This document shows, piece by piece, positions 2 to 24,810 of a stretch of 28,591 nucleotides of DNA; position 1 is the first letter of the stretch; each line of letters starts with the position of its first letter. The notes under the pieces are model-generated. The model did no database searches. It worked only from the letters and a program-made list of their open reading frames with translations, and had not been told where the DNA came from. Source of the stretch: Pseudomonadota bacterium (lineage in GTDB: Bacteria > Bdellovibrionota_C > UBA2361 > OMIW01). Location of the stretch: NCBI GenBank assembly GCA_900299205.1, contig OMIW01000082.1, positions 1-28,591 on the forward strand, read 5' to 3'. A program made the position numbers and the translations under genes.

Positions 2-1045
2 ATGATGACGACTTTCTGGCTCTCCGGTGAATTTCTCTCAAGGCGGGTGTACCAGCTTAAGATCATTTTTTCCTTCTTCCGCAACCCTCACCGTCATTTC
101 GCTACTGTACCGAGGAACCGCCCTCCGTTTGGGCGTATCCGCCTCTCCTTCTTTGTAATTGGAGTTATTTCTGCAGTTTCGCTGTTTCTTCTCTGGGATA
201 GGAGTCTCGAGGATGCGTCTTTTCCAGAGCTCGCCGAAGGTCGTTACATAGGTCTGCTCGCAGAGGATCGCCCTTCAGGTCAGCGAATTTCTTCTCCGAT
301 GATCGTTGACGTTCCCCCAAAAGGGCCAGCTCTCCTCATAATCCTCGACGAGAAGAGTAAGGGAGGGACCGTTAGTTTAAGGCTTCCTCAGAACTCCGAC
401 ATCAGAGAACCTGTAATAATTAACATCGCTGGAGGGGAGAAGATTCAGCTTATCGGCAGCCAGACCACCGAGGGCTACGGAGGAAGCGGCCTACGAGCAT
501 CCGGGGCAGAAATGTCATGGATTTTGAGGAAGGTTGCCTTATCATCTCAGCCCCCTCCCGCGGGTCTGACCAATTTACTGGATCAACGAGCGAAGCTTGC
601 CTTTATCGAAAGACGAATTGAAGAAACAAAAGCTGGTGCCTCACGTGCATCAAATGAATCTCAAAAGTTGCGTGGCACATTGCCCGACGGAACAGCAAAA
701 AGTACGTCGAACCTTGATGCTCCTACCGAGAGAGCGCAAGAGAGGGAAAGCAGCGGGGGGAAGATTCTGGAGAGCGAGGTTTCTGAGCTTACCCAGAACA
801 TCGATATCCTCGTGTCAGTAGCTCCGAGTGCGAGAGTTAGCCGAGCGGCATTTAGGTCCCTTGCTGAAGAGGAAAAGTGGATAGATGCGATATTATTGGG
901 CACATCTTCGACCATCCTCAGCGCAGAGGATGAACAAGCTCTTTCAAGGGGGATCGAAGTTGATGACCTACAAAGAGCAATCGCAGTGGCAAGGCAAAGA
1001 ATCGATGCAGCTCTCCGTGCGAGTGATGATATCCTCGGAGAATAG
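2..1045 (+). CDS. Unknown membrane-anchored coiled-coil protein, first gene of GlmL-linked cluster
   Basis: I do not recognise a family for this 347-residue protein. It has a basic N-terminal stretch (residues 1-45), one clear hydrophobic span at about 47-66, then a region outside the membrane: a beta-rich part (about 80-185) followed by a charged helical region (about 195-265) that looks able to form a coiled coil, and a helical tail. Two ATG codons stand in tandem at bases 2 and 5. The true start may lie before the window edge, so the N-terminus is provisional. It is followed 47 bases later by a secreted coiled-coil protein of similar size and layout. This suggests that both are envelope parts of the complex encoded by the downstream overlapping genes. 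Function unknown; that it is a real gene is well supported by length and neighbours. Confidence 0.75.
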   Translation: MMTTFWLSGEFLSRRVYQLKIIFSFFRNPHRHFATVPRNRPPFGRIRLSFFVIGVISAVSLFLLWDRSLEDASFPELAEGRYIGLLAEDRPSGQRISSPMIVDVPPKGPALLIILDEKSKGGTVSLRLPQNSDIREPVIINIAGGEKIQLIGSQTTEGYGGSGLRASGAEMSWILRKVALSSQPPPAGLTNLLDQRAKLAFIERRIEETKAGASRASNESQKLRGTLPDGTAKSTSNLDAPTERAQERESSGGKILESEVSELTQNIDILVSVAPSARVSRAAFRSLAEEEKWIDAILLGTSSTILSAEDEQALSRGIEVDDLQRAIAVARQRIDAALRASDDILGE

Positions 1046-1092
1046 TTACTTAGCTGGTCCCCAAAAAATAAAAAGAGGAGTTCCTAAACGCA

Positions 1093-2100
1093 GTGGCGCT
1101 AGAAATTATAATCTCTTTTCTTCTCCTGATGATCCTTGGTTTTGGATCTCCAGCCAAAGCTGAAGGGTCGATATTTACAGCTGAGATCCAATCTGATCTC
1201 GAGTTTACTGACTCGTTCGCTCTGCTGATTTTCGATTCAGGACGACTTGAAACTATTCCCGTTTGGACCGCCCCCGTTAACGGCGGTGATTCCTCCGCAC
1301 GAGGTGTGAGGGCGAGGATAGTCGGGGGTATGTTACCCGAGGCAATATCTTCTCAAACTCCGAGAACATCCGCTGCCCCGGAACATTTGAGCAGTCTCAA
1401 AGTCATCCTCCGAGGTGAAAGCGGCCTTATAGAAGTGATCCCTGTTCCAGCACCCACCGATGAAGACCTTCACTCCATCGAGCAATCGACTCGTGAAATT
1501 GAGACTCTCATGACCTCTCGGATTAGGCACCTTGAAAAGATTGAGAATCGTGCCGTCCAGGCTGAGGCAAATCTAGAGAGGGCTCGCACCGAATTTGAAG
1601 GAACAACCTCAAGAGCTGTTAATAAAGAGGGTATCGTCAATCCTGAGGAGAAGCAAAGGGAGCTTTTTCATTTGGAACGGAAGGCCAAATGGTTGAAGGT
1701 GCGATTCCAGAAGCTCAAGGCGAATATTCAGTACCCCTATGCCGATCTCGTGCAAGCGCTCTACGACCGAGCGTCAGACACCTTCAGGGCGGCCCATCTT
1801 GCGGTAGCGAAACAGAACAAAGCTCGCCTCGGAAAAGCCGGCCTCCCGGCCGACGAAAGGGAGCGTCTCATTGAACTCGGACAGAGCGTTGATCCTCAGC
1901 CTCTTCGCGAACGGCTTACTCTTCTCCGCGCAAAAACGGAAGAATTTGAAGAAAGGCTACGGGCTATAACACCACCCGACATGCTCATGGAGAATGCTGA
2001 GCTTCACCCAGAAGAACCATCTCCTGATTGGAGAAATTCGAACGATCAGAAATCACAGAGCGACCTGCTCGATGGCTCCTCGGGTCCGATGGATGAGTGA
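1093..2100 (+). CDS. Unknown secreted coiled-coil protein in GlmL-linked cluster
   Basis: This 335-residue protein starts at a GTG, with GAGGAG about 12 bases upstream. Residues 1-23 form a good Sec signal peptide: a hydrophobic run followed by SPAKA, a plausible signal peptidase I site. The mature protein has a beta-rich part (about 25-120), like the gene before it, then a long charged helical stretch (about 130-215 and 245-285) typical of coiled coils, and a polar low-complexity C-terminus. I therefore place it in the periplasm or on the cell surface. The first two genes share an overall plan (hydrophobic N-terminus, beta part, coiled coil) and may be distant paralogues. No enzyme motif is visible, and I cannot name a family. 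Confidence 0.75.
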   Translation: MALEIIISFLLLMILGFGSPAKAEGSIFTAEIQSDLEFTDSFALLIFDSGRLETIPVWTAPVNGGDSSARGVRARIVGGMLPEAISSQTPRTSAAPEHLSSLKVILRGESGLIEVIPVPAPTDEDLHSIEQSTREIETLMTSRIRHLEKIENRAVQAEANLERARTEFEGTTSRAVNKEGIVNPEEKQRELFHLERKAKWLKVRFQKLKANIQYPYADLVQALYDRASDTFRAAHLAVAKQNKARLGKAGLPADERERLIELGQSVDPQPLRERLTLLRAKTEEFEERLRAITPPDMLMENAELHPEEPSPDWRNSNDQKSQSDLLDGSSGPMDE

Positions 2101-2435
2101 GAGATTATTTATCGAGAAAGAATATCATGAAAGATTCTCTCACCCTTGGTTCGACTCATCAATCCAAAGGTCACACGCTAGACGAGGATATTCGCTGGTT
2201 AGCTCAGACAATTAAGAGTTCCCCTTTAGCTCTTCCTCTTGCTATTCTCATCGAAGCTCACATTCCGCTAAGGGGTTGCCTCTTTGCGTGCTTCGAACTT
2301 TTGGCGCCAATCATCGGACTTTTTTTACCTGACCGGGTATTACAAACTCTCAGCAAACTATCCACAGCCAGTGGCGAGAGCGATTTCGAGGCATTATGGT
2401 CCGACTTTCTGGAGCATCTTACTGATGGCAACTGA
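2097..2435 (+). CDS. Small unknown protein in GlmL-linked cluster
   Basis: This protein of up to 112 residues lies between the secreted coiled-coil gene and the DUF6754-like gene. Two starts are possible. A GTG at 2097 overlaps the previous stop as GTGA but has a poor ribosome binding site. An ATG at 2127 has GAGAAAG six bases before it and gives 102 residues. The middle holds a moderately hydrophobic segment (AIPLRG-like turn, then a run ending in IIGLFLP, about residues 52-78) that may be a membrane-associated helix; the C-terminus is acidic. Its stop overlaps the next start by 11 bases, so it is translated as part of the operon. No family recognised. Confidence 0.6.
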   Translation: MRDYLSRKNIMKDSLTLGSTHQSKGHTLDEDIRWLAQTIKSSPLALPLAILIEAHIPLRGCLFACFELLAPIIGLFLPDRVLQTLSKLSTASGESDFEALWSDFLEHLTDGN

Positions 2436-3243
2436 CCATGCAGCTCCCGTGATGTTGCTGTCTCTGCTGCTGCTGATCGCGGTACTCTTTCAATTTATCC
2501 GGCGAGCACAAACCTCGCCTGACAGACTCGCTATTCGCCGAATCCCTGGGATCGACGCAATAGAGCATTCGGTAGGCCGAGCTGTAGAGCAGGGACGACC
2601 GATAATGTTCACGACAGGTTTAACCCCCCTCGGGCCGGTCCTTTATGCCTGTATGGGAGTGCTATCCTTCGTCGCGCGCAAAGCTGCCCTTTTTCGCTCG
2701 CGTCTGATTGTGCCTCAGTCGGCTCCGGATGCCCTTGCCCTCATCGAAGACGTCGTCTCGGAATCTTATCGTTTAGAGCATCGATCCAGTTCTTTCGATT
2801 CTACTTCCCTCATGTATCTATCTGATGAACAGTTTGCTTTTGCTTCTGGATACATCGGTATCACTCACCGTGAACAACCTGGAGCTGCATTTCTTTTTGG
2901 ATCCTTCGCCGCAGAAAGTTTGATACTCTCTGAGGCAGGGCAGCAGGTCGGTGCAGCACAAGTCGCCGCGTCCGTCAGTCCCGAGCAAGTGCCATTTTTT
3001 GTTTGCACATGCGATTATACTCTTATCGGCGAAGAGCTCTTCTCCGCTTCGGCATACCTAAGTAAGGAACCAGTCCTTGTCGGAAGCCTTTATGCTCAAG
3101 ATCGGGCTAAGGTCGGGATCATGATACTGATTGTTGTGGGGATTCTCTTCGAGACTATGAAACAGGTAGTTCCCTCCCTCAGAGCGATCCCCGACCTCGT
3201 ATCACTCCTCATATCCTTTCATTGGAGCGCTCTCACGACATGA
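2425..3243 (+). CDS. DUF6754-like membrane protein
   Basis: This is a 272-residue protein with a membrane span at about 9-26, a conserved-looking central domain (about 44-215) and a second span at about 219-237. The central domain contains FTTGLTPLGPVLYA, a Ser/Ala-rich segment and FGSFAAESLILSEAG. From memory this pattern resembles the DUF6754 family; that match is a recollection, not a search result. I chose the ATG at 2425 because the hydrophobic N-terminus begins right after it, GGAG lies about ten bases upstream, and it overlaps the preceding gene by 11 bases. The open frame reaches back to 2284, but that extension lies inside the preceding gene in another frame. It ends in an ATGA overlap with the next gene. 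Function unknown; likely a membrane component of the complex. Confidence 0.75.
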   Translation: MATDHAAPVMLLSLLLLIAVLFQFIRRAQTSPDRLAIRRIPGIDAIEHSVGRAVEQGRPIMFTTGLTPLGPVLYACMGVLSFVARKAALFRSRLIVPQSAPDALALIEDVVSESYRLEHRSSSFDSTSLMYLSDEQFAFASGYIGITHREQPGAAFLFGSFAAESLILSEAGQQVGAAQVAASVSPEQVPFFVCTCDYTLIGEELFSASAYLSKEPVLVGSLYAQDRAKVGIMILIVVGILFETMKQVVPSLRAIPDLVSLLISFHWSALTT

Positions 3244-4250
3244 AAATCCGCAATCTCCGTGAGGCTCTCATAGCGGGCGTAACATTCCTTGGTGGAGTAT
3301 ATTTTGTACTTGAATTTCTGCTGCCGGAATCTACGCTCGATGCTTGGGGTATTTCATCTCATCATGAATCGATAACAAACGGATTCCTTGCTGCAATTTA
3401 TGTATCTGTCGGACTAGGAATCATAAACCTTTGCTTGGTACATGGATCAAAAATAGCATTTCGACGATCAGGAGCACTCTTTAGTGGAATTCTTCTTTCT
3501 GGTCTTTTTGCTATGATGATAGCTTCAACAGCAGACTGGTTCTCCTCTCTTTCCGATGCTCGAAAAACGCGAAAAATTGAGATCCTGTCTCTCTTTGCAG
3601 AGGCCATCGTTTCCGATGCGGCTGCTCAGCGGAAGGATGTTCCCCCTACTGAACTCCGCGTGAGAGCTTTTATCCCCGAGCTTGTCGCCCTCGAGGCTCA
3701 AATTACATCTATTAGCGCACCGGAAATTCAAAAGGAGCCAATTGCCATTCTCTGCGAGCAACTTCGAGATGCTATCACGTCGCTCAAAGCAACTCCCTCT
3801 TCTCTAAATACTGTCGCCACCCTCCCCCCTCTCCTTTCCTCGGCTCGGACGTTTATTTCTGCCCAAACTGCCTATGAGCGAGAGAATAGGCTTTCTCGGA
3901 AACTCTTCACTCTTCTTTTCGATGGAATATTCACCTCACTCGGCTCATCAATGTTTGCACTTCTTGCCTTTTATATTGGGGCAGCAGCTTACAGAGCTTT
4001 CCGAGTTACCTCTATCGAATCGCTTCTCATGATGATGGCTGCCCTTCTGGTGATACTAGGTCAAACATCTGTCGGACTGATGATATCAGAGTCATTCGGT
4101 TCCATTCGGCTTTGGCTACTTGAAGTTCCCAGCGCCGGAGTTTTTCGGGCTATAAAGCTGGGGGCGGGAGTTGCCTCCCTCGTTCTCTGTATTCGGATGT
4201 GGTTCTCAATAGAGGCGAAAGGCTTTACGGGAGGGCCGGATCGTGGCTAA
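3240..4250 (+). CDS. Unknown multi-span membrane protein in GlmL-linked cluster
   Basis: This 336-residue protein has about six predicted spans: three near the N-terminus (about 10-30, 45-67, 77-99) and three near the C-terminus (about 225-255, 263-285, 298-320). A mainly helical soluble loop of about 115 residues separates the two groups. The ATG at 3240 overlaps the previous stop as ATGA, with GGAG 12 bases upstream; a TTG at 3222 would add six residues but lies on that same ribosome binding site. The split arrangement of three spans, a soluble domain and three spans suggests a scaffold or channel-like part. I see no transporter signature and cannot assign a family. Confidence 0.75.
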   Translation: MKIRNLREALIAGVTFLGGVYFVLEFLLPESTLDAWGISSHHESITNGFLAAIYVSVGLGIINLCLVHGSKIAFRRSGALFSGILLSGLFAMMIASTADWFSSLSDARKTRKIEILSLFAEAIVSDAAAQRKDVPPTELRVRAFIPELVALEAQITSISAPEIQKEPIAILCEQLRDAITSLKATPSSLNTVATLPPLLSSARTFISAQTAYERENRLSRKLFTLLFDGIFTSLGSSMFALLAFYIGAAAYRAFRVTSIESLLMMMAALLVILGQTSVGLMISESFGSIRLWLLEVPSAGVFRAIKLGAGVASLVLCIRMWFSIEAKGFTGGPDRG

Positions 4251-5109
4251 CGCGGGGAGACGAATTGTTTATCTGGTCATATTTTTAGCGGTCCTTTTAC
4301 CTCTGGTTGGTGGCATACGGCTTCCTGCAGCCCCCTTAAAGGCGGCGACTGAAAGCTTCCATCTCGTAGAGAAATTGCAAAAAAAGAAGGGTAGAATCGC
4401 TCTCGTAGCAATGGATTATGGCCCATCGAATTACGCGGAGAACGGCCCCCAAGCGGAGGTTGTTATAGAGCATTTGATGCGCCGACGAATTCCGTTCGTT
4501 GTAATGACCCAGATTAGCCAGGGGGAGGGTTTTCTCGAGGCGGTACCTGAGTCCGTGGCGAGCCGATTAATGCGCGAAGATCCATCCCAGAGGTGGACCT
4601 ATGGAGAGGATTGGGCAAATATCGGTTTCCGCACGGGGCTAGCTCTCTTTATCCAGGCTTTAGCGAAGTCGAATAATATCGCCACATACATCAGCAAGGA
4701 CGCTCGAGGAAATGACCTGTCTAAGCTTCCGCTCATGGAGGGAGTATCGACAATCTCCGATATTGATCTTTTGATTCAATTAACTGGCTACATCGGCACA
4801 TTTGATACCTATGTGCAATTCTTTCGGCGAAATGGAGTAGCCCCCACATTCATTCACGGTTGCACCTCAATAACCATTCCCGAGGCCTACATATATCGCG
4901 ACTCCGGACAGCTAAAGGGAATTCTTGAAGGCGTTTCCGGCGCTGCCTGGTATTCCGAGTTACTAGAAAAAACCTATCCCAAACGGGAGGAAGATTCATC
5001 TCGGGCGATTAATACGGCACTGGGGATATCACAGCTGGCCATCGTGCTTCTTATATTTCTGGGAAATTTTCCGATAATTGTGAGGGCTATTTCCAGGAGG
5101 ATAAGATAA
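4243..5109 (+). CDS. Unknown membrane-anchored protein with large extracytoplasmic domain
   Basis: This 288-residue protein starts at a GTG overlapping the previous stop by eight bases, preceded by GGGAGGG. It has a signal anchor or signal peptide at about 8-26 and a C-terminal span at about 264-282 followed by basic residues, so the domain in between (about 30-260) probably faces the periplasm. That domain has an alternating strand/helix pattern (for example RIALVAMDYGPSNYAENG, then IPFVVMTQ) suggesting a Rossmann-like alpha/beta fold. Possible functional residues include D58 and the Cys in FIHGCTSITIPEAY. An alpha/beta domain of this kind outside the membrane could bind a ligand or a partner; this is inference. 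No family recognised. Confidence 0.75.
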   Translation: MANAGRRIVYLVIFLAVLLPLVGGIRLPAAPLKAATESFHLVEKLQKKKGRIALVAMDYGPSNYAENGPQAEVVIEHLMRRRIPFVVMTQISQGEGFLEAVPESVASRLMREDPSQRWTYGEDWANIGFRTGLALFIQALAKSNNIATYISKDARGNDLSKLPLMEGVSTISDIDLLIQLTGYIGTFDTYVQFFRRNGVAPTFIHGCTSITIPEAYIYRDSGQLKGILEGVSGAAWYSELLEKTYPKREEDSSRAINTALGISQLAIVLLIFLGNFPIIVRAISRRIR

Positions 5110-5813
5110 TGTGGGAGCTCGCATCAGTGCTGATCGGAGGTATTTGCACCCTCGCAATTTTCAGCTTCCTAATAAAAGAGAATGCCGTTTATCGGTCCTT
5201 TGAACACCTCTTCATCGGCATTGCTGCCGGTTTCGCTCCAGTATTCACCATTAAGAACTTCCTCTGGCCGAATATATTGGCTCCTCTGCTCGGGTTTGGT
5301 GTTGAATACTTTCCCGATGGGACGGTCTTGACCCCTTACAACAGCTCCTATCTTTTGTACATTTTCCCTCTTTCATTTGGATTACTCTACTATACCATCT
5401 ATTCAAAGCAGTTCGGGTGGCTTGCAAAACTAGTAATAGGTCTTTCACTGGGATTTAGCGCAGGGCTGGGCATTAAGGGATTTTTTGCCGAAATGGTTCC
5501 TCAGATTCGAAGCAGTCTCAAACCCTTAATCGTTTTTTCGGCAGAGGGCATCAGCTGGACTTCGAGTCTCAGCAATATCGTATTCGTGGGGGCAATGACC
5601 CTCGTCTTCCTCTATTTCCTTTCAACGGTTAAGAATGATTCGCTGCAAAAAGGCTCTTCATCCAAGGCAGCTCGCTGGGTAATGATGATATGCTTTGGGG
5701 CATTCTTTGGGTCCACTGTGATGGCTCGCATGGCACTATTGGTTGAGAGAGTTCAATTCATGTCCGGTCCTTGGTTTCAAGCTGTCAAAGGTTTGATAGC
5801 TGGAGGAGTTTAG
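5109..5813 (+). CDS. Unknown multi-span membrane protein in GlmL-linked cluster
   Basis: This is a 234-residue, very hydrophobic protein with about six membrane spans (about 3-22, 30-52, 75-97, 100-123, 150-173, 185-208) and short loops. The ATG shares its A with the stop codon of the previous gene (TAATG), and a perfect AGGAGG lies eight bases before it, so translation is coupled and strong. The loop FFAEMVPQIRS and the conserved-looking GLGIKGFF segment may matter for packing. It shows no known transporter motif. As the most compact membrane protein of the cluster it is a candidate pore or anchor for the ATPase encoded next. Function unknown. Confidence 0.75.
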   Translation: MWELASVLIGGICTLAIFSFLIKENAVYRSFEHLFIGIAAGFAPVFTIKNFLWPNILAPLLGFGVEYFPDGTVLTPYNSSYLLYIFPLSFGLLYYTIYSKQFGWLAKLVIGLSLGFSAGLGIKGFFAEMVPQIRSSLKPLIVFSAEGISWTSSLSNIVFVGAMTLVFLYFLSTVKNDSLQKGSSSKAARWVMMICFGAFFGSTVMARMALLVERVQFMSGPWFQAVKGLIAGGV

Positions 5814-5834
5814 TCATTACGCGAGGGGCTCTTA

Positions 5835-7643
5835 ATGATTCGAGTTGTCGTCACAGATTGTGGGTCAACAACGACCAAAGCCCTCATGTTTGAGCGCGAT
5901 GATACTGGTTGGCACTTTCGGACGCGCGGGGAGGCGCCAACAACTGTCGAGCAGCCGGTCGCCGATGTCACAGTAGGAGTCCGAAATGCCTTTACCGAAT
6001 TAGAGGAACTGTCATCCTGTCACTTTTTTTCCCGGGAGCTTAATCCCCCGATTGAGACTCCAGCCAAAACCTCAAGAGGTACCGATCTTTACCTTTCTAC
6101 AAGCTCAGCGGGAGGTGGCCTTCAGATGATGGTCGCCGGTCTCGTGGGGAAGATGACAACTGAATCAGCTGAACGGGCAGCGCTGGGTGCTGGTGCCATC
6201 GTCATCGATTCGATTTCAGCTGATGACGGAAGAAGTGATCACGAAAGAATAGAACGCATTCGCGCCCTGAAGCCAGATATCTTTCTGCTCTGTGGTGGTG
6301 TAGATGGAGGAGCGGTTGCTCAGGTAATCGAAGCCGCAGAACTCCTGCTCGCAGCGGCACCTCGCCCTCGATTCGGCGATTCGCTGTCGCTCCCGATAAT
6401 ATTTGCTGGAAATACCCTCGCGGCAACTGAGGTGCAGAGAGTACTCGCTCCGATGGGGTCGGTCACTATCGTTGATAATGTTCGTCCGGAGCTTGAGAGA
6501 GAAAATCTTGCGCCGGCACGCGAAGCCATTCACGACTTCTTCCTCTCCCATGTGATGAGCCATTCTCCGGGTTACCGCACCCTTATGGGCTGGACGAGCA
6601 CTCCGATTATGCCCACTCCACTTGCTGTCGGCATCATGGTCGATCATTTTGCCAAACGCCGAAACATCGAAGCGATTGCGGTTGATATCGGCGGAGCGAC
6701 GACCGATGTTTTTAGTTCCTGCATTAACCCGCGTAACGAACGAATTCTGACACGGACCGTCAGTGCCAATTTAGGTATGAGCTACTCCATTGGAAATGTT
6801 CTGCTAGAGGCTGGTATTGAAGCGATAGCGCGCTGGTTGCCGTTTGTCGCCGACCTCGACGATCTAAAGAATAGAATTCGCAACAAGATGATTCGTCCGA
6901 CCACGATACCACAAACCCACGATGACCTCTGGCTCGAACAGGCGGTTTGTCGGGAGGCTCTGCGACTCTCATTCACTCATCACCGATCACTTGCGCTGTC
7001 GGTAAATGCGGACGACAAGGCAAAAGAGATTGGCGATGCCTTCAACCAAGGGTCAAATGATCAGCTCATTTCGCTCATTCGAATCGAGGCGATTGTCGGT
7101 TCAGGTGGTGTTCTCAGCCACGCGCCCGATCGCGCTCAGGCGGCTCTCATGATGATTGATGGATTTGAAGTTGAGGGCATTACACAGCTATTCGTTGATT
7201 CTGTCTTTATGCTTCCCCATCTCGGTATATTCTCTTCGGTGGAACCGGCCGGTGCGACTCAGATTCTTGAGAGAGATTGCCTCATTCATTTAGGGTACTG
7301 TATTGCACCAATTTTTTCCTGCAAGCTCCCACCGGGTACCCCTCTTGGTACGATTATCGTAGATAGCGGAGAGGGCCAGGCATTCACCGCATCCGAGTTC
7401 TCTGTTATCCCCCTGCGAGGAGAGACTCACACGCTCCTCATCGAGCCGAAAGGCCAGGTGGATGTCGGGGCAGGCCCAGGAATCCCTTTGAGGCGCCAAA
7501 TCATCGGTGGTGGCTGTGGTCTCATTATTGATTGTCGAGGTCGGCCTATACGTTTTCCTCCAGACACTGAATCTCGAGCAAGAAGGCAGCTGCAAATAAT
7601 GAACGCTCTCAAGATCGCGCCCGATTCTCAGGAGGATGACTAA
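5835..7643 (+). CDS. GlmL/MutL-family ASKHA ATPase
   Basis: This 602-residue protein belongs to the GlmL/MutL ('glutamate mutase L') family of the actin/Hsp70/sugar-kinase fold. Seen directly: the phosphate-1 motif TDCGSTTTK at residues 7-15, the family-typical EAPTTVE followed by DVTVGV at about 34-48, the segment LSTSSAGGGLQMMV, and the phosphate-2 motif VDIGGATTDVF near residue 283. In glutamate fermenters GlmL lies beside the B12-dependent glutamate mutase subunits and is thought to act as an ATP-dependent activator. Here no mutase gene is nearby; the neighbours are membrane proteins. A cytoplasmic actin-like ATPase beside membrane partners recalls the GspL/PilM arrangement in secretion systems, though that is only an analogy. 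GAGGGG lies before the ATG at 5835, and the stop overlaps the next start (TAATG). Confidence 0.9.
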   Translation: MIRVVVTDCGSTTTKALMFERDDTGWHFRTRGEAPTTVEQPVADVTVGVRNAFTELEELSSCHFFSRELNPPIETPAKTSRGTDLYLSTSSAGGGLQMMVAGLVGKMTTESAERAALGAGAIVIDSISADDGRSDHERIERIRALKPDIFLLCGGVDGGAVAQVIEAAELLLAAAPRPRFGDSLSLPIIFAGNTLAATEVQRVLAPMGSVTIVDNVRPELERENLAPAREAIHDFFLSHVMSHSPGYRTLMGWTSTPIMPTPLAVGIMVDHFAKRRNIEAIAVDIGGATTDVFSSCINPRNERILTRTVSANLGMSYSIGNVLLEAGIEAIARWLPFVADLDDLKNRIRNKMIRPTTIPQTHDDLWLEQAVCREALRLSFTHHRSLALSVNADDKAKEIGDAFNQGSNDQLISLIRIEAIVGSGGVLSHAPDRAQAALMMIDGFEVEGITQLFVDSVFMLPHLGIFSSVEPAGATQILERDCLIHLGYCIAPIFSCKLPPGTPLGTIIVDSGEGQAFTASEFSVIPLRGETHTLLIEPKGQVDVGAGPGIPLRRQIIGGGCGLIIDCRGRPIRFPPDTESRARRQLQIMNALKIAPDSQEDD

Positions 7644-8803
7644 TGGGTCAGGCTTACTCCGGTGGGGCCTCCGTGCTCCTGAATACTGCTATCAAAAGAC
7701 GAAGGGACCTTCCCATTCCCGGGGTAATATCGGTTCGAGTCGGTGATTGCGTAGAGTCTGATACTATCATCGGATCGGCCTCAATCAGCGGTGAGGGGGT
7801 TCTTGTTCGGATTGCCGAGGAGATCGGGCTTCCTTCTGAGGAAGCTATGAATACGATCACTGTCAGGATCGGCGACCCAGTACGAAAAGGGGATATTCTT
7901 GCCCGGCATCGGGCTTTCCTCGGACTGTTTCGGGCTGAGGTCCCCACTCCAGTCGATGGCACCATTGAACTAATAAGTGGAGTAACCGGCACCATCATGG
8001 TTCGCTGCCCGCCTATCGAGGTCCAAAAAAAAGCCTTTCTCGAGGGAACAATCTCCGAGGTTCAAGATGGAATCGGAGTTACGATATCGTCAATCTGCAC
8101 CCTCGTTCAGGGGGTGTTTGGAGTTGGTGGTGAGCGGTCAGGAAAACTGGTAGTTCTGGAGCAAGGGGGCCTCTTATCCTCCCTTCCGCTGCGTGAGGAC
8201 TTAGCGGGAGCTGTGATTGTCTCACGAGGTTCTCCCTCCCTCGAAGGTCTTCTCGATGGAGCTAAACGAGGCATCGCGGGATGGGTCGCCGGCTCAGTTG
8301 AAGATCGCGTTATTGAGTCATATGCCAAAAGAAGATTTGGAGTCGCGATTACTGGTGATGAACCAGTTCCTTTCACCTTTTTTGTAACGGAGGGGTTTGG
8401 TTCGATACCGATGAGCGATCAGGCATTTTTTGCGCTGAAGCAGCATGAGGGTCAGGGAGCATCGATATCAGGAATAACTCAGGTACGGGCGGGTGCGATA
8501 CGACCAGAGGCAATTATTTCATTAGGTAAGGCTCTTTCGATTGCCGAGCCGACTGAGGAAATTAACTTAGAAGAACATTCCCTTGGATTAGCAGTCGGTC
8601 GATCGGTCCGGCTGATACGACACCCCTTCTTTGGTCAAGTAGGGCGAGTGCATGAGCTTCCTCACCATCCCCGTATCATAGCGACCGGCGCCTCAGCCCG
8701 GGTTGTCGTCGTTGAGCTGGCTCAAACTCCCCATTTTACATCCGAATGCTCTGGGCCATTATTCGTGGAAGTTCCTCGCGCGAATGTCGAGCTTCTCGGC
8801 TAA
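7643..8803 (+). CDS. Barrel-sandwich and KOW-like domain protein, GlmL partner
   Basis: This 386-residue protein has no signal peptide or membrane span, so it is probably cytoplasmic. Two similar segments near the N-terminus, ISVRVGDCVESDTIIG (about 29-44) and ITVRIGDPVRKGDILAR (about 72-88), followed by PTPVDGTIELI, look like the hammerhead/barrel-sandwich fold of biotinyl-lipoyl domains, but without the modified lysine motif. The C-terminus (about 320-386) has a KOW-like turn, GQVGRVHELP, and a beta-rich end. The central part (about 130-310) is alpha/beta. Its start overlaps the GlmL-family stop (TAATG) with GGAGG seven bases upstream, so the two are made together and likely bind each other. 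No catalytic motif visible; an adaptor role is inferred. Confidence 0.75.
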   Translation: MGQAYSGGASVLLNTAIKRRRDLPIPGVISVRVGDCVESDTIIGSASISGEGVLVRIAEEIGLPSEEAMNTITVRIGDPVRKGDILARHRAFLGLFRAEVPTPVDGTIELISGVTGTIMVRCPPIEVQKKAFLEGTISEVQDGIGVTISSICTLVQGVFGVGGERSGKLVVLEQGGLLSSLPLREDLAGAVIVSRGSPSLEGLLDGAKRGIAGWVAGSVEDRVIESYAKRRFGVAITGDEPVPFTFFVTEGFGSIPMSDQAFFALKQHEGQGASISGITQVRAGAIRPEAIISLGKALSIAEPTEEINLEEHSLGLAVGRSVRLIRHPFFGQVGRVHELPHHPRIIATGASARVVVVELAQTPHFTSECSGPLFVEVPRANVELLG

Positions 8804-18379: not shown

Positions 18380-19015
18380 GTGGCTCGCATCTCTCGTCGA
18401 TTGAGCTTTATTCTTGCAGCTCTCATCTTAGTTGGGTTTTTTAGCGCCACCTTTGCTCTCAGCACCCTTACTCGAGAGCAATCAATCCGGAAATTGGATG
18501 ATAATCCGGTCGGTTTCCAAGCCGCAGAATCGGAGAACAGTAACGAATCAGAAAAACCAACTGGCTCAGTCGTTCTGGAAAAATTTCACCGAAGTCAAAC
18601 AAAACCGAACGGCCAAAAGGAATGGGAGATTACTGCCGATGTTGGGGAGTACCTACCTCAAACAAGCGTCGTACGAATTACCAATGGGACGCTGCTACTT
18701 TTTAAGGCTGATGGCTCGCAGACCAAGCTGATCGCTCCAAAAGCCGAGCTCATTCTCTCAGGAACCGACCTCACCGAGGCTCGGTGCTCAGGAGGAGTAA
18801 AAATTGAGCACAAAGGCGACACAACTATCTCGAGCGAGACGATTACTTACGGGCGAGTTGATGGTCGGGTAGTGGCCCCCTCACGAGTTATCATCGAGAA
18901 CAGCTCGGGAACCACCTCAGCAGATTCAATGCAGGGCAACGTCGAGACCAGAATATTTCAACTTCTTGGCTCAGTCCGAACCGAGATACGACCTCAAAAT
19001 AAGGGAATGCCATGA
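18380..19015 (+). CDS. lptC: LPS export protein LptC-like
   Basis: LptC bridges the LptBFG transporter and the periplasmic LptA bridge in LPS export. This 211-residue protein has one N-terminal membrane span (about 9-27), then a low-complexity linker and a beta-rich domain (about 65-205) with repeated strands such as WEITADVGEY, TLLLFKADGSQTKL and VKIEHKGDTTISSETITYG, as expected for a beta-jellyroll. It starts at a GTG with AGGGA upstream, 13 bases after kdsA, and ends in an ATGA overlap with lptA. Sequence conservation in LptC is low; the assignment rests on fold pattern plus position between kdsA and lptA. Confidence 0.82.
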   Translation: MARISRRLSFILAALILVGFFSATFALSTLTREQSIRKLDDNPVGFQAAESENSNESEKPTGSVVLEKFHRSQTKPNGQKEWEITADVGEYLPQTSVVRITNGTLLLFKADGSQTKLIAPKAELILSGTDLTEARCSGGVKIEHKGDTTISSETITYGRVDGRVVAPSRVIIENSSGTTSADSMQGNVETRIFQLLGSVRTEIRPQNKGMP

Positions 19016-19671
19016 TCACAAGTTCTCCGTTCGATAACCCGAGGCGGGCTATGTCACTGATTGTAATCCTTTCATGCCTGGCGATACCTCTTGCCTCACC
19101 CACGCCGAGTCTCTCGGCGCCGCGCTCATCAAACAGCAAAAAAGACGATACCCCCCGAAAGAAGATAGCGCCCGCGGCTAGCCAGATCCGCGAGACTTCT
19201 CAGCCTCAAAAAAATGAGAATCGTTCGGAGGCTCCTGTTATCGATCTGGGAAGCTCGTCGTCGCGAAATGAGCCGGTGTATATAACCTCAGACAAGCTCG
19301 AGCTCGATGCGGAGAACCGCTCCTTTGTTTATAACGGGGATGTGAAAGTTGTCCAGGCGGATGTCACTATCACGGCCCGACAAATGGTGGGGAGGTATGG
19401 CTCTGATAATAAAGTCGAGACCATCACTGCGCGTAAAGATGTCGTCGTAACCAAAAGTCCCGACACGAAAGCGACGAGTCAGTTGGGGGTTTACGATGCT
19501 AAATCGGGGATAGTGACTCTTACTGAAAATCCCCACCTCTTCCAGGGAGGCAACGACCTAGCAGCCGATAAAATTACCATCAACCTAACAACCAATAAGA
19601 GCTCTGCCGAAGGACAGGTACGGATGAAGGTCATAAAGCCTCCAACAGGTAACAGAGACTCTGCTCAATAA
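19012..19671 (+). CDS. lptA: LPS transport protein LptA-like (OstA domain)
   Basis: LptA forms the periplasmic bridge carrying LPS from the inner to the outer membrane. The 219-residue protein starts in an ATGA overlap with lptC. It has a signal peptide (about 14-35, after a short polar lead), a Lys/Ser-rich linker, then an OstA/LptA domain (about 85-205) with VYITSDKLELDAENRSFVY, GDVKVVQADVTITARQM, and DLAADKITINL. The domain is a run of short beta strands. A later in-frame ATG would shorten the lead to the signal peptide; I keep the overlapping start. Confidence 0.88.
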   Translation: MITSSPFDNPRRAMSLIVILSCLAIPLASPTPSLSAPRSSNSKKDDTPRKKIAPAASQIRETSQPQKNENRSEAPVIDLGSSSSRNEPVYITSDKLELDAENRSFVYNGDVKVVQADVTITARQMVGRYGSDNKVETITARKDVVVTKSPDTKATSQLGVYDAKSGIVTLTENPHLFQGGNDLAADKITINLTTNKSSAEGQVRMKVIKPPTGNRDSAQ

Positions 19672-19680
19672 GGCACTATC

Positions 19681-20826
19681 ATGAGGCGCCAGTTCTCGAA
19701 CGCTCCCCATCACCAAGCTTCATCGATGGCGAGGCGCTCTCCTGTGAAGAGAACTTCACTTTTATCCCCTTCTTGTTACTGGACCCTCACCTTTTCGAAG
19801 GGCCTTGGCTCACTGGTGGTTGAAGAACTGAGCGAGAAAGGGATACGGATAGCATCGCAGTTGATCGATGATGAAGAAATATCATTTTCGGGGGCTCAGG
19901 CTTCGGGCAGCAAACTCGTTACGATAAGGACAGCCTCCGCTCTCTTTCGAGGAATCATCCTTCCTATTGATCGACCTCGAGGTATAACCTCATATGAATA
20001 TCGGAAAGCGATGGGGCTCCTTTTTGAGGATGTTTCCCGCATCACTCCTCTCACTACATTTAAGGGGATGCGACTTGAAGGCGCGGGGAAAGAAACAGCG
20101 ACCTTCAAGAAACTTGGAGCATTTTTTCAAGAACTAACCTCATGTCCGTACCGTCCTGATGATCCGAATGCCGATCTCGTTATTCGTATTCGCCGTCCAC
20201 TTCGGGAGCAAGGATGGGAGATTCTGGTACGAGCTACTCCACGCCCACTCGCAACACGTCCCTGGCGAGAGAGCAATTTCCGTGGCGCTCTCGCCGGTCC
20301 TCTCGCAGCCGCGATGGTTCGTCTCGGGCGACCTCACAAACGAGACCTCGTTCTCAACCTGCCGTGTGGAAGTGGGACCATACTAGGTGAACTTTTAGAG
20401 ATGGGCCATGTTGGTCGCCTGATTGGACTAGATATCAGTGAATATGCCCTCGCAGCAGCCCGAGCTAATACGACCTCTTGCCCCCCCTCCCGAGCAGTAC
20501 ATCTGGTTCGCGGCGATCTCTGCCAGCTCCCATTTCCCGATAAGTTAGCATCACTTGTCATAAGCGATCCTCCGTGGGGCGAGTCCATGGGAAATCGAAG
20601 GGATGCCAAGATACTTTGCGCGCCAATGTTACGAGAGATGGATCGGGTCCTCACCGATAACGGCCGCCTCGTGATTATATCTCCCCACGATGAACAACTT
20701 CAGCGAGCTGCGCAGCCATTCTTCACCCTCGAACGCTCGCTAAGGGTGTTTCAGCGAGGGTTCCACCCCTACATTTCTGTCTTCCGAAAAAAAAGGCCGA
20801 TAATTGGTGGGGCTAATGCCTCATAA
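19681..20826 (+). CDS. THUMP/RlmL-Trm14-like RNA methyltransferase
   Basis: This 381-residue protein looks like a class I S-adenosylmethionine methyltransferase acting on RNA. The catalytic half has motif I LNLPCGSGTILGE (about 224-236), IGLDISEYALAAARAN for the SAM-binding acid, and motif IV DPPWGESM, an (N/D)PPW/Y box typical of N2-guanine or related base methyltransferases such as RlmL and Trm14/Trm11. The N-terminal half, starting YWTLTFSKGLGSLVVEEL (about 37-54), resembles the region leading into a THUMP RNA-binding domain. The start is at 19681, nine bases after lptA, with a weak ribosome binding site. Its place between lptA and lptB is unusual. Exact substrate unknown. Confidence 0.78.
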   Translation: MRRQFSNAPHHQASSMARRSPVKRTSLLSPSCYWTLTFSKGLGSLVVEELSEKGIRIASQLIDDEEISFSGAQASGSKLVTIRTASALFRGIILPIDRPRGITSYEYRKAMGLLFEDVSRITPLTTFKGMRLEGAGKETATFKKLGAFFQELTSCPYRPDDPNADLVIRIRRPLREQGWEILVRATPRPLATRPWRESNFRGALAGPLAAAMVRLGRPHKRDLVLNLPCGSGTILGELLEMGHVGRLIGLDISEYALAAARANTTSCPPSRAVHLVRGDLCQLPFPDKLASLVISDPPWGESMGNRRDAKILCAPMLREMDRVLTDNGRLVIISPHDEQLQRAAQPFFTLERSLRVFQRGFHPYISVFRKKRPIIGGANAS

Positions 20827-20878
20827 TATTTAGCAGGTATTGGCTCCACAGGCACTATATCGCGACGTGACACAAAGC

Positions 20879-20908
20879 TTGAACGATGACCCCTGTGCGG
20901 GGTAGGAT
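20879..20908 (+). promoter_or_regulatory. Candidate sigma-70-type promoter for lptB
   Basis: TTGAAC (20879-20884) and TAGGAT (20903-20908) lie 18 bases apart, each matching the consensus at four of six positions. They sit in the 112-base gap between the methyltransferase gene and lptB. The lptB ATG has no clear ribosome binding site, so a short leader or translation from upstream are both open. Confidence 0.3.
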
Positions 20909-20938
20909 TCTCCCTAACTTTTTATCATCTACCTTCCC

Positions 20939-21664
20939 ATGCACACCCTCGCCGCTCACGACCTCGTTAAGCGATACAAAGAACGGCCTGTTGTCAATGG
21001 GGTCTCGCTCTCGGTCAACGCGGGGGAGGTTGTGGGGCTTCTCGGCCCGAATGGTGCCGGAAAAACGACGACCTTCTATCTATGTGTTGGTCTTACGGCA
21101 CCGACGTCAGGAGCGATTACTCTTGATGACCACGACATCACCCGTGCTCCTATGTTTGAACGTGCGCGTCTCGGAGTAGGGTATCTTCCGCAGGAACCAT
21201 CTGTATTCCGCAAGCTGTCAGTAAAAAACAACATCCTCGCAATCCTGGAAACCATTCCATTTCCTTCCGAGGCGGCCCGCCTCGAACGGCTGGAGCAACT
21301 TCTCGAAGAGCTGGGGGTGAAGCGGATTGAGCGGAGCATGGCGTCAGCACTCTCCGGTGGTGAACGACGTCGCGTTGAAATTGCCCGTGCTCTCGCATCG
21401 AATCCCCTCTTTATACTTCTGGATGAACCATTTGCCGGTATTGACCCAATCGCGGTCCAAGATATCCAGGAGATAATCACAACCCTCCAGAAAAAAAATA
21501 TCGGGGTACTCATCACCGACCACAATGTTCGCGAGACTCTTGGCATCTGCACGAGAGCATATATCCTGGTTGATGGGAAGGTCCTTGTAGAGGGCCCCCC
21601 CGAGGTAATAGCCGAAAGCGAAAAAGCTCGTCGCTACTATCTAGGGAATGACTTTTCACTGTAA
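20939..21664 (+). CDS. lptB: LPS export ABC transporter ATPase LptB
   Basis: LptB is the cytoplasmic ATPase that powers LPS extraction by LptFG. At 241 residues it equals E. coli LptB in length. Seen: Walker A GPNGAGKTT (36-44), Q-loop in YLPQEPSVFRKLSV, signature LSGGERRRVEIARAL, Walker B FILLDEPFAGIDP, and the H-loop in ITDHNVRETL. The Q-loop region and the FAGIDP and DHNVRETL segments are characteristic of LptB rather than of amino-acid ABC ATPases. There is no clear Shine-Dalgarno before the ATG at 20939. lptF and lptG are not in this window. Confidence 0.96.
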   Translation: MHTLAAHDLVKRYKERPVVNGVSLSVNAGEVVGLLGPNGAGKTTTFYLCVGLTAPTSGAITLDDHDITRAPMFERARLGVGYLPQEPSVFRKLSVKNNILAILETIPFPSEAARLERLEQLLEELGVKRIERSMASALSGGERRRVEIARALASNPLFILLDEPFAGIDPIAVQDIQEIITTLQKKNIGVLITDHNVRETLGICTRAYILVDGKVLVEGPPEVIAESEKARRYYLGNDFSL

Positions 21665-21786
21665 CCTCCCCTAAAACTGTTTAATATGGTGAGACGCATG
21701 AGTACTCCGAGCTTGATATTCCCGGCACCGCTTATTGCTTGACACATCCTCCTTTTTTGGGGCTCCCTCGACCGAGGTATCAACTC

Positions 21787-22602
21787 ATGCAAGAGCAATC
21801 ACCCTCTGGGCATCAGCCTTTTGATCTATCCTCCATACCCACAATTTTGAGTCTAAAATCGTCCGTGGTTCTGATTCGTCACGGAAAAAGTGGCGGGAAT
21901 GTTCTCAGCGCCAAGTTGCGAGCCAATCCGAATATGCATTTTAAGTTACCCCCTGGATTGGAGGACAGCTCATTTAGATTAACCTCTACGGGGCGGGAAC
22001 AGGCTATCAAGACAGGTAAGTGGCTTGCCGCGAGATTTCCTGAGGGATTTGACATCATTCTTGCTTCACCCTTCCAAAGAGCCAGAGAGACTGCTCAGCT
22101 CGCCTGTCTCGCGGCAGGGTGGGATATTCACAAGATCAGGGATGAGCCTCTCGTACAAGAGAGATGCTGGGGAGATATCTACTCAATGAACGCATCTGAG
22201 CGTCGGGAGGTACTCGAGGCATTTCGAAAAAGCCCCCGCGACACCCGTATACCCAATGGTGAAACTCTCGATGAAACGAGGGCTCGAGCACACCGGTTCT
22301 TCGAAAAAGTTCGCTCTGATTTCAGTGGGAAACAACTGCTGGTCTTTTCTCATGGTGAGTTTATCCAAGAGGCACTGGCCGACATCAGCGGTATCTCAGA
22401 CCATAATCGGCGGTACCGAGTTAAAAACTGTCAAGTCTTCGAATTATCCCCCTGGCCAGAGAGTCACAAGAGTGGCGGAGGATCGGATTGGCTCATCCGA
22501 ACTTCATGGCCACACCGTGATATGGAGGGGACTTGGGAGGATCCCAAACAGTCTAAGATGCCGGGGCGACCGAATCTTGATTCGCTGGACCTCGGGTCAT
22601 AG
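21787..22602 (+). CDS. Histidine phosphatase family protein
   Basis: This 271-residue protein has the RHG motif in VVLIRHGKSGGN (about 27-38, with His32 as the expected phospho-acceptor), the conserved arginine region ASPFQRARETAQ, an acidic PNGETLDETRAR region, and the second catalytic His in LVFSHGEFIQE. These mark the phosphoglycerate-mutase-like histidine phosphatase superfamily. The start at ATG 21787 has CGAGGT about nine bases upstream; a TTG at 21739 would add 16 residues but lacks a ribosome binding site. The insertion between the RHG motif and the next conserved block (about 38-65) is somewhat long. The substrate cannot be read from sequence; small phosphoesters, phosphoproteins and nucleotides are all possible. 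It lies between lptB and rpoN. Confidence 0.85.
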   Translation: MQEQSPSGHQPFDLSSIPTILSLKSSVVLIRHGKSGGNVLSAKLRANPNMHFKLPPGLEDSSFRLTSTGREQAIKTGKWLAARFPEGFDIILASPFQRARETAQLACLAAGWDIHKIRDEPLVQERCWGDIYSMNASERREVLEAFRKSPRDTRIPNGETLDETRARAHRFFEKVRSDFSGKQLLVFSHGEFIQEALADISGISDHNRRYRVKNCQVFELSPWPESHKSGGGSDWLIRTSWPHRDMEGTWEDPKQSKMPGRPNLDSLDLGS

Positions 22603-22749
22603 CGCCCAAATCCCTCAATCGTTCGTCTATACGAGTCCTCAGATAACCCAGTCGAAACTCAATTCTATAATCCTCGAAGATATCCCCTCTCAACAACCAA
22701 TAATCCGAAGACGGATGCCCTTTTGACGCATCAGATGAGGAGGACGGTA

Positions 22750-22812
22750 ATGGAGCGAAGAGACGCGCCCCACTATGGTGGCGCATCGCCATCCCGCGCC
22801 ACCACCACCTGA
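22750..22812 (+). CDS. Possible 20-residue leader ORF before rpoN
   Basis: An ATG at 22750 is preceded by GAGGAGG six bases upstream, the best ribosome binding site in this part of the window. It opens a 20-codon frame (MERRDAPHYGGASPSRATTT) whose TGA overlaps an ATG at 22812 that is in frame with rpoN. An inverted repeat lies inside it. It may be a regulatory leader whose translation controls entry into rpoN. It could also be a chance ORF. Confidence 0.4.
   Translation: MERRDAPHYGGASPSRATTT
22776..22804 (+). promoter_or_regulatory. Inverted repeat in rpoN leader
   Basis: TGGTGGCGC (22776-22784) and GCGCCACCA (22796-22804) are perfect 9-bp reverse complements with an 11-base loop, GC-rich, ending 25 bases before the rpoN ATG at 22830. 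No T-run follows, so it is more likely an RNA hairpin affecting translation, or a protein site, than a terminator. Confidence 0.45.
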
Positions 22813-22829
22813 TGGGAGATAAAGGGATC

Positions 22830-24290
22830 ATGGCTCTTGAGGCAAAACTTCTTCAGAAGATGGGACAGTCTCTTCTGATGACTCCCCAACTTCAACAGGC
22901 GATTAAGTTGCTTCAGCTTGGTCGACAAGAGTATCTTGATGCTATCCATCAGGAATTACTTGAGAATCCTCTTCTCGAGGAAATCCCTTTTGGGGACGAA
23001 GGGGGCGAAGCCCCCCAGACGCCATCCGAGATACCCCCCCCCCCACCTTCAGAAGATACAGAGACTCGTTCCGTTGATCCGGAGGCTCGATCTGATTGGG
23101 AGGACTTCTCTGATTTCTTCACCGACTACTCGGGTGCGGCCCAACCGAAAGGAGCGCTGTCGGCAGAAGAATATCGTCCCCTGTACGAACTGATCGCCGT
23201 TCAATCGGAGACTCTCGTTGATCACCTCGGAGAACAGCTCCGATTTCTTGATATTACTGAGAGTGAGAGAAATCTGGTCCTTTACCTCATCGGCAATCTT
23301 TCCCGAGATGGGCTTCTCGTACATCCGATCGAGGAACTCGCTGCTGAGACGGGCACTCCAGTGGGCGAGCTCGTATCAGCTCGCGAGATCCTCAAGAACC
23401 TAGACCCTCCGGGAGTTGGTACGATCGACATCGGGGAGTGTCTCCTTGTTCAGCTTGAACGTCTCGGGCACATTGGGCTCGAGTCAACAATCATTAAGAA
23501 ACACCTCGACAAACTTGAGCGACATCAACTTGATCGAATCGCCAAGGAGGAAGGAATAACAATTGCCGAGGTGCAACGGGCAGTCGGAATTATCCAGCAG
23601 CTAGAGCCACACCCTGGGCGACAATTTGCGGATGATAGCCAGCGGTATATCGTGCCAGATGTATACGTCCACCGCGTTGAGAATGACTACGTCATCGAAT
23701 TGAATGAGGATGGAATTCCACGGATCCGTCTCAATGATTTTTGCGTTCAACTACTTCAAGAACCTCCCATAGGAAGAGATGGTAACAAGCAGTATCTCCA
23801 GGAAAGGTATAAGAGCGCATCATGGCTCTTGAAGAGTATTCAACAAAGACAGCGGACAATCTTCAAGGTGACCGAGAGCATCGTAAAATTTCAGCGACAT
23901 TTTCTGGATGCGGGAATTCATCATCTTAGGCCGATGGTTCTCAAAGATGTTGCAGATGACATCGGCATGCATGAATCAACAGTGAGCCGAGTTACCTCGA
24001 ACAAATATGTTCACACCCCCCAAGGGGTATTCGAGCTTAAGTTTTTTTTCACCTCGGGAATCAAGGGAGATGAGGGAGATGTGTCATCGTCGGCAGTCAG
24101 AGAGCGTATACGAGCCCTTATCGGACAAGAGGCTTCCGGACACGCCCTCAGCGATCAGCAGCTCGTGGAAGTTCTCGAAAAAGAGGGTATTACTATCGCC
24201 AGACGAACCGTAGCAAAATATCGGGAGTCGTTGGGAATCGAATCATCCGCCCGAAGAAACAAGATCGCCTCTTTTTCGAAGAAAAAGTGA
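22830..24290 (+). CDS. rpoN: RNA polymerase sigma-54 factor
   Basis: Sigma-54 directs RNA polymerase to -24/-12 promoters and needs an ATP-driven activator. The 486-residue protein has region I, ALEAKLLQKMGQSLLMTPQLQQ, split by position as glutamine-rich helices at 2-45; an acidic, proline-rich region II (about 50-100); the core-binding domain; a helix-turn-helix DIGMHESTVSRVTSNKY (about 378-395); and the RpoN box ARRTVAKYRE near residue 460. The ATG at 22830 matches the usual family start and has GGGAG 11 bases upstream. The ATG at 22812 would add six residues and overlaps the leader ORF stop. hpf follows, a common pairing. Confidence 0.97.
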   Translation: MALEAKLLQKMGQSLLMTPQLQQAIKLLQLGRQEYLDAIHQELLENPLLEEIPFGDEGGEAPQTPSEIPPPPPSEDTETRSVDPEARSDWEDFSDFFTDYSGAAQPKGALSAEEYRPLYELIAVQSETLVDHLGEQLRFLDITESERNLVLYLIGNLSRDGLLVHPIEELAAETGTPVGELVSAREILKNLDPPGVGTIDIGECLLVQLERLGHIGLESTIIKKHLDKLERHQLDRIAKEEGITIAEVQRAVGIIQQLEPHPGRQFADDSQRYIVPDVYVHRVENDYVIELNEDGIPRIRLNDFCVQLLQEPPIGRDGNKQYLQERYKSASWLLKSIQQRQRTIFKVTESIVKFQRHFLDAGIHHLRPMVLKDVADDIGMHESTVSRVTSNKYVHTPQGVFELKFFFTSGIKGDEGDVSSSAVRERIRALIGQEASGHALSDQQLVEVLEKEGITIARRTVAKYRESLGIESSARRNKIASFSKKK

Positions 24291-24296
24291 CGAGTC

Positions 24297-24319
24297 GAGA
24301 GAGGAGCCCCTCCTCTCTC
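24297..24319 (+). terminator. Strong hairpin just after rpoN
   Basis: GAGAGAGGAG (24297-24306) and CTCCTCTCTC (24310-24319) form a perfect 10-bp stem with a 3-base loop, beginning seven bases after the rpoN stop. No T-run follows, so it is not a textbook intrinsic terminator. It could cause pausing, protect the rpoN mRNA 3' end, or give partial termination before hpf. Confidence 0.45.
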
Positions 24320-24492
24320 AAGCTCGAGAAGAACCCTTGTCACACTATGAAGTCCGTGGCTACGATCCGACATTTCAGGATAATCACTTACCGATGAGCA
24401 AAAAGGGACTATGCTCAGATGAATTTAAAATAGGGAAAATGGCTGTCGGCTAAACATTAGGATACCAATAAACTGAGTACATAGGGACGCGT

Positions 24493-24810
24493 ATGTCGAA
24501 CGTATCAAATTCATCTCTTCGGATTGCAATTACCTTCAAAAATACCGACTCGACAGAACCATTAAAAAAATACGCCTCAGAAAAGCTCATTCACTGTATC
24601 CAAAAATTCGTGCATCAGGATGCTGAGGTTCATGTGGTCCTCGCTGTTGAGAAAGTTCGACAAATTGCCGAGGCCTCGTTCCACGCCTTTGGCATTGACT
24701 TCTTCGCTCGGGAAGAGAGCACCGATCTTTACGCCTCGATTGACAAGCTCTGTGATTCGCTGTCTCAACAGCTTAGGAAGCAGAAAGAAAAGGTGAAGAA
24801 TCACCATTAA
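24493..24810 (+). CDS. hpf: Short ribosome hibernation promoting factor (HPF/RaiA family)
   Basis: This 105-residue protein binds the 30S subunit and silences ribosomes when growth slows. It has the beta-alpha-beta-beta-beta-alpha pattern of the family: IAITFKNTDSTEPLKKYASEK, then EVHVVLAVEKV and AEASFHAFGIDFFAREESTDLYASID, ending in a basic helix (LRKQKEKVKNHH). It lacks the long C-terminal dimer domain, so it is the short form. AGGGA lies about eight bases before the ATG at 24493. The 202-base gap after rpoN holds a strong hairpin, so hpf may have its own promoter. Older annotations call this a sigma-54 modulation protein because of this gene pairing. Confidence 0.9.
   Translation: MSNVSNSSLRIAITFKNTDSTEPLKKYASEKLIHCIQKFVHQDAEVHVVLAVEKVRQIAEASFHAFGIDFFAREESTDLYASIDKLCDSLSQQLRKQKEKVKNHH

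Follow-up and report, generated by a model that had tools for sequence, protein, structure and literature searches.

A conserved seven-gene unit pairing a long GlmL-type ATPase with predicted membrane proteins

Gene layout of the locus

The window, a stretch of 28,591 nucleotides, is an entire contig of a 2.45-Mb MAG from a Pseudomonadota bacterium. Nine open reading frames (g1–g9) lie on its plus strand between positions 2 and 8803 (Table 1). As noted in a preliminary description of this DNA, most of the genes overlap. Shared stretches of 1–11 bases occur at six of the eight junctions. The g2/g3 and g4/g5 overlaps are four bases each (GTGA and ATGA, respectively), g3/g4 and g5/g6 overlap by 11 and 8 bases, and the g6/g7 and g8/g9 junctions share one base within TAATG, while the remaining two junctions are gaps of 47 bases (g1/g2) and 21 bases (g7/g8). 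Because the window is a whole contig, g1 abuts the contig end, and further genes of the cluster may lie upstream of it. Downstream, the genes past g9 are not conserved in relatives, which places the boundary at g9.

Table 1 Coordinates and predicted features of the nine genes in the window
Gene	Position	Strand	Predicted product
g1	2–1045	+	One TM near the N terminus (residues 46–64) and an exported domain of ~280 aa
g2	1093–2100	+	Protein with a signal peptide; body charged and probably helical; Pfam matches weak
g3	2097–2435	+	Helical protein of ~100 aa; motif GLxxPAxFxLExxKPL
g4	2425–3243	+	DUF6754; Rossmann-/DHS-like cytosolic domain between two TM; start ATG 2425
g5	3240–4250	+	Six TM; ~134-aa loop between TM3 and TM4, probably extracytoplasmic
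g6	4243–5109	+	TM, extracytoplasmic Rossmann-like domain (HGCTS...PEA and AEN motifs), TM
g7	5109–5813	+	Five- to six-TM protein; FGxxFGSTVMAR motif (alignment)
g8	5835–7643	+	Long-form GlmL/MutL-type ASKHA ATPase, 602 aa; C-terminal extension of ~120 aa
g9	7643–8803	+	N-terminal barrel-sandwich (lipoyl/RnfC_N-like), middle and C-terminal KOW-like domains; candidate partner of g8

Two of the nine products exceed a Pfam cut-off, and both carry the family names assigned to them earlier: g4 matches DUF6754 over nearly its full length (PF20539; E 5.3e-78, 262.1 bits against a cut-off of 27) and g8 matches MutL/GlmL (PF13941; E 2.8e-117, 392.7 bits against a gathering cut-off of 27). Hydropathy places membrane or export segments in g1, g2 (a signal peptide), g4 (two, terminal), g5 (six), g6 (two) and g7 (five), in agreement with the earlier count of at least six membrane or secreted proteins, and finds no membrane segment in g8. 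For the proposal that g1 and g2 are coiled-coil envelope proteins, the coiled-coil signals are weak. PADLOC models returned no anti-phage defence family for g1–g9 at E≤0.01.

Elsewhere in the window, positions 18380–24810 hold lptC, lptA, lptB, rpoN and hpf-like genes (named from sequence), which make an LPS-bearing Gram-negative host probable, and positions 25267–25836 encode a putative DNA-binding protein in which AT-hook-like motifs (GRPRK and RGRPRK) recur. Several relatives carry genes for a NUDIX hydrolase and a hexapeptide acyltransferase (gA) just upstream of g1 (e.g. L052:6500-7782). The two were dropped as parts of the cluster, as no orthologue of gA was found in the window's genome (best E 4.7e-4).

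Conservation and gene order across phyla

The preliminary description treated all nine genes as one set. Among the loci of a GTDB-wide scan, g1 and g2 are lineage-specific, being recognisable in the window's own lineage and in close relatives but in no other group; the remainder of the set holds together, and the conserved unit is the seven genes g3–g9 (2097–8803). In the window's phylum, DUF6754 is present in 42 of 45 genomes (20/20 of the good ones) and GlmL (MutL) in 44, in single copy except for two genomes with the gene split over contigs. Nearly all of 20 loci sampled around DUF6754 in the phylum keep g4–g8 or g4–g9 together in order, the exceptions being one that ends at a contig edge (L044), one with g4 alone (L045) and two without a recognised g9 (L050 and L051). 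Publicly named relatives have been deposited as Deltaproteobacteria, Bdellovibrionales, Oligoflexia and Candidatus Dadabacteria.

The predicted co-occurrence of these genes beyond a single genome was borne out. The GTDB-wide DUF6754 profile scan yielded 67 loci, including records named as Binatia, Planctomycetota, Armatimonadetes and Bacillota/Symbiobacteriaceae. Binatia, Planctomycetota and Armatimonadota have the unit, and Bacillota have related pieces. A GlmL over the cut-off, mostly long (~600 aa), occurs in 24 of 25 module genomes sampled nearly all from outside the window's phylum, whether adjacent to the module or not. By Fisher's test, which ignores shared ancestry so that its P values overstate independence, DUF6754 and MutL co-occur at P=1.7e-12 in 151 Armatimonadota genomes (127 with both, 2 with DUF6754 only, 8 with MutL only and 14 with neither) and at P=3.6e-30 in 199 Planctomycetota genomes (44, 5, 8 and 142, respectively). 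The phylum labels of these sets are the deposited names of central loci, and weak partial MutL matches (three in Armatimonadota, one in Planctomycetota) were scored as absent. The patchy distribution in Planctomycetota (25%) makes for the stronger test of co-occurrence. Near-universality in the window's phylum and in Armatimonadota (129/151 genomes with DUF6754) points to a basic cell function.

Almost all loci not cut by contig ends keep the order g4-g5-g6-g7, mostly with g3 ahead, and g3 adjoins either g4 or g8-g9 depending on the locus. Two arrangements of the full unit recur: g3-g4-g5-g6-g7-g8-g9, found in the window, in Armatimonadota (L153) and in Planctomycetota (L184 and L185), and g3-g8-g9-g4-g5-g6-g7 (e.g. 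L152, L156, L173, L174, L176 and L188), the latter often with a small membrane gene, c12 (weak bPH-like match), in front. Recurrence of the same gene order across phyla means that the cluster is more than chance, and a common order in two permutations, together with fusion of g8 to g9, argues strongly that the genes make up a single functional unit. In many Armatimonadota and Planctomycetota, g4–g7 and g8-g9 occupy separate loci. The g4-g5-g6-g7 block is tandemly repeated at five loci (L114, L172, L174, L175 and L178), which suggests that it can vary or form hetero-oligomers.

The GlmL-type ATPase g8 and its pairing with g9

The ASKHA motifs of g8 (DCGSTTTK, DIGGATTD and GSGG) are invariant or nearly so in the alignment, and the protein is predicted to be an active ATPase. 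Module-type sequences from across the phyla are 49–58% identical to the g8 of the window, and a mutase-linked GlmL is 33% identical. The g8 of the window falls below the NCBI cut-offs for the GlmL equivalog (224.5 against 475 bits), the GlmL family TIGR01319 (172.8 against 204 bits) and ornithine Or-4 (202 against 600 bits). A tree of 68 proteins separates 62 module-type GlmL sequences from six short ones with a split support of 100/100, at a depth that is uncertain because long branches meet and the root is a midpoint. By this sequence comparison, module GlmL is a clade of its own, apart from mutase-linked GlmL. One short GlmL sits in a glmS-glmL-glmE operon (L122:1011-4328; GlmS and GlmE named from their sequences) and another (L197) adjoins a GlmE relative. 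The Planctomycetota genome with the ordinary glmS-glmL-glmE operon also has a separate long-type GlmL.

The observation that drew attention to the locus, a GlmL without its mutase, extends to the whole phylum: the window contains no mutase genes, and glutamate mutase E (PF06368) exceeds its cut-off in 0/45 phylum genomes, the window's own (90% complete) included. Alternatively, g8 could reactivate another adenosylcobalamin enzyme while the membrane proteins supply or export the cofactor. Such a role would suit the family of g8 and the methylmalonyl-CoA-mutase-type proteins found in 39 of the 45 genomes, but we regard it as improbable. Against it stand the lack of any glutamate mutase E over the cut-off and the separate clade of mutase-linked GlmL, and no B12 gene recurs in the module neighbourhood. 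In a survey of B12 enzymes that covered PF06368 and PF01642, g8 is also kept in three genomes of 90% completeness or more (G008, G012 and G015) that show no PF01642 mutase, which weakens such a role.

Of the 105 loci examined, 69 bear g8, and g9 adjoins it in 55. The two are also found as single-ORF fusions (L201:5310-7814, 835 aa; L202:4278-6749, 824 aa), both of them divergent extra copies beside the standard module of one Planctomycetota genome. Gene order and fusions show the close pairing of g8 with g9, and the two proteins probably form a physical complex. g9 also tracks DUF6754 and long GlmL: 44 of the 46 Planctomycetota genomes with g9 (one more edge fragment excluded) have DUF6754, and the genomes with short-type MutL only (G220, G249, G306 and G404) are without g9. 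The N-terminal domain of g9 resembles RnfC_N weakly in the window (16.3 bits, under the cut-off of 25.6) and above the cut-off in a homologue (L171, 30.4 bits), and its KOW-like C terminus gives weak profile matches to uL24 and Spt5.

GlmL relatives are regarded as reactivating or accessory factors, and the NCBIfam name itself includes the word 'accessory'. The main rival to a motor role is that g8-g9 serves as an assembly or repair chaperone for the g4–g7 complex, as the GlmL reactivase does for B12 enzymes. In keeping with this, g8-g9 is often unlinked from g4–g7 and nonetheless co-occurs with it, and divergent g8-g9 pairs exist without g4–g7 neighbours, alone or near FtsX, ABC and HlyD membrane systems. 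The separate loci are as compatible with a regulator or chaperone as with a motor; the tight operon order in most loci and the near-universal pairing, however, are equally expected of a core subunit, and we consider the chaperone reading rather unlikely. In one Bacillota MAG, a single run of genes (L211:1207-14251) contains two GlmL-g9 pairs together with genes for an FtsX permease and an ABC ATPase, and HlyD and FtsX genes adjoin it. Such neighbours of the divergent Bacillota pairs were too few to serve as a basis for interpretation.

A putative ATP-dependent membrane complex and its relation to known systems

The models of g4 (pLDDT 94.5) and g6 (pLDDT 95.4) both consist of a TM helix, a Rossmann-like domain and a second TM helix. 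Folds were compared by Foldseek (E≤0.001) and by VIA-align Z scores. Foldseek gave no match in the PDB at that threshold for either model, and PDB sequence profiles gave nothing usable for g4, g6, g7 or g8. The g4 model aligns with Sir2 (Z 12.3, rmsd 3.4 over 143 residues), ACDS epsilon (Z 10.2) and transhydrogenase dIII (Z 10.0), which all have the DHS-like NAD/FAD-binding fold. The best Z for g6 is 9.0 (1kjn and 3cf4), close to what common arrangements give. Homology between g4 and g6, considered for their similar layout, has no support at the sequence level (hhalign probability 1.6%), and a likeness of g6 to 8h2i P22 (E 1.2e-6) was set aside, as no single stretch passes alone.

Positive charge follows TM1 in g4 and lies at both ends of g6, a placement that argues for opposite topologies: the domain of g4 would face the cytosol and that of g6 the outside. 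Planctomycetota g4 proteins have an N-terminal extension beginning with a signal-like stretch, and such exported-looking extensions outside the window's phylum agree with an N-out g4; assignment of the Planctomycetota extension to fibronectin III was rejected for want of Pfam support. Together, charge distribution and models suggest that both faces of the membrane carry a Rossmann-like domain. When alignment positions are read against the secondary structure of the models, conserved residues cluster towards the C-terminal ends of strands in g4 (G65, Q136, G159, E164, G202, E203 and E204) and in g6 (D58, E66, H205–T208, E229 and G230), probably at the usual ligand edge of Rossmann-like folds.

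These likenesses could also describe a redox or NAD(P)-linked membrane complex in which g4 binds a dinucleotide and g9 acts like the barrel-sandwich domains of RnfC and NqrA. The g4 alignments with Sir2 and transhydrogenase dIII, the RnfC_N scores of g9 and a NuoJ-like match of g7 (Pfam E 0.002, under the cut-off and rejected as an assignment) all lean that way. Against them, Pfam finds no Fe-S, flavin or quinone family in g1–g9, the fold matches stay outside the Foldseek threshold, barrel-sandwich domains are widespread and such enzymes would not be expected to contain an ASKHA ATPase; we regard a redox complex as improbable.

We favour, with moderate confidence, a reading in which the products of g3–g9 would assemble into one ATP-dependent complex of the inner membrane, with g8-g9 serving as the ATPase unit on the cytosolic side. 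In this model, g8, an actin/Hsp70-fold GlmL-family ATPase no longer serving a mutase, would pair with g9 on the cytosolic face, and g3 and the cytosolic Rossmann-like domain of g4 would recruit the pair to the membrane. The membrane core would consist of g5 and g7, and g6 would hold a Rossmann-like ligand-binding domain outside. ATP turnover by g8-g9 could then couple the inside ligand of g4 to the outside ligand of g6, the simplest forms being transport or a transmembrane coupling that serves the envelope. Transport, signalling and envelope maintenance are all candidate functions. With the ATP motifs conserved, an envelope machine driven by this ATPase is plausible. More tentatively, the module may represent an unrecognised class of membrane machine, conserved in several bacterial phyla and near-universal in two of them. 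Its transmembrane complex, with Rossmann-like ligand domains inside and outside, would be powered by a GlmL-family actin/Hsp70-fold ATPase released from its role with B12 enzymes.

The earlier view that the system is largely undescribed agrees with our survey of a library of open-access papers, in which we found no mention of DUF6754, nothing relevant on long module-type GlmL and no description of the module. The module appears to be an undescribed system in that it matches no described one. Most of the MutL/GlmL genes that we examined belong to this broadly conserved membrane system without a mutase, and those in Armatimonadota, Planctomycetota and deltaproteobacteria-like MAGs are open to misnaming as mutase accessories. 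With a name, the seven-gene unit can be put to the test, and a family known for servicing B12 enzymes would gain a membrane role.

Among the closest described systems is glutamate (methylaspartate) mutase, GlmS-GlmE-GlmL, which shares PF13941 and the ATP motifs with g8. The module differs in lacking GlmS and GlmE, and its g8 is ~600 rather than ~460 aa and has g9 and a membrane module as partners. The module may work like PilM-PilN-PilO or FtsA, placing an actin-fold protein against the inner side of a membrane complex, but its partners differ, and PilM, PilN, PilO and FtsA have no Pfam match in g1–g9 up to E 10. Its likeness to Rnf and Na+-NQR lies in the putative RnfC/NqrA-like barrel-sandwich of g9, whose sequence match is weak, and Pfam finds none of the remaining Rnf/Nqr subunits in g1–g9. 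The predicted Rossmann fold of g4 likewise resembles dIII of proton-translocating transhydrogenase, with a weak sequence match. For DUF6754 (PF20539), to which Pfam gives no function, the module adds partners, membrane anchors and a predicted fold.
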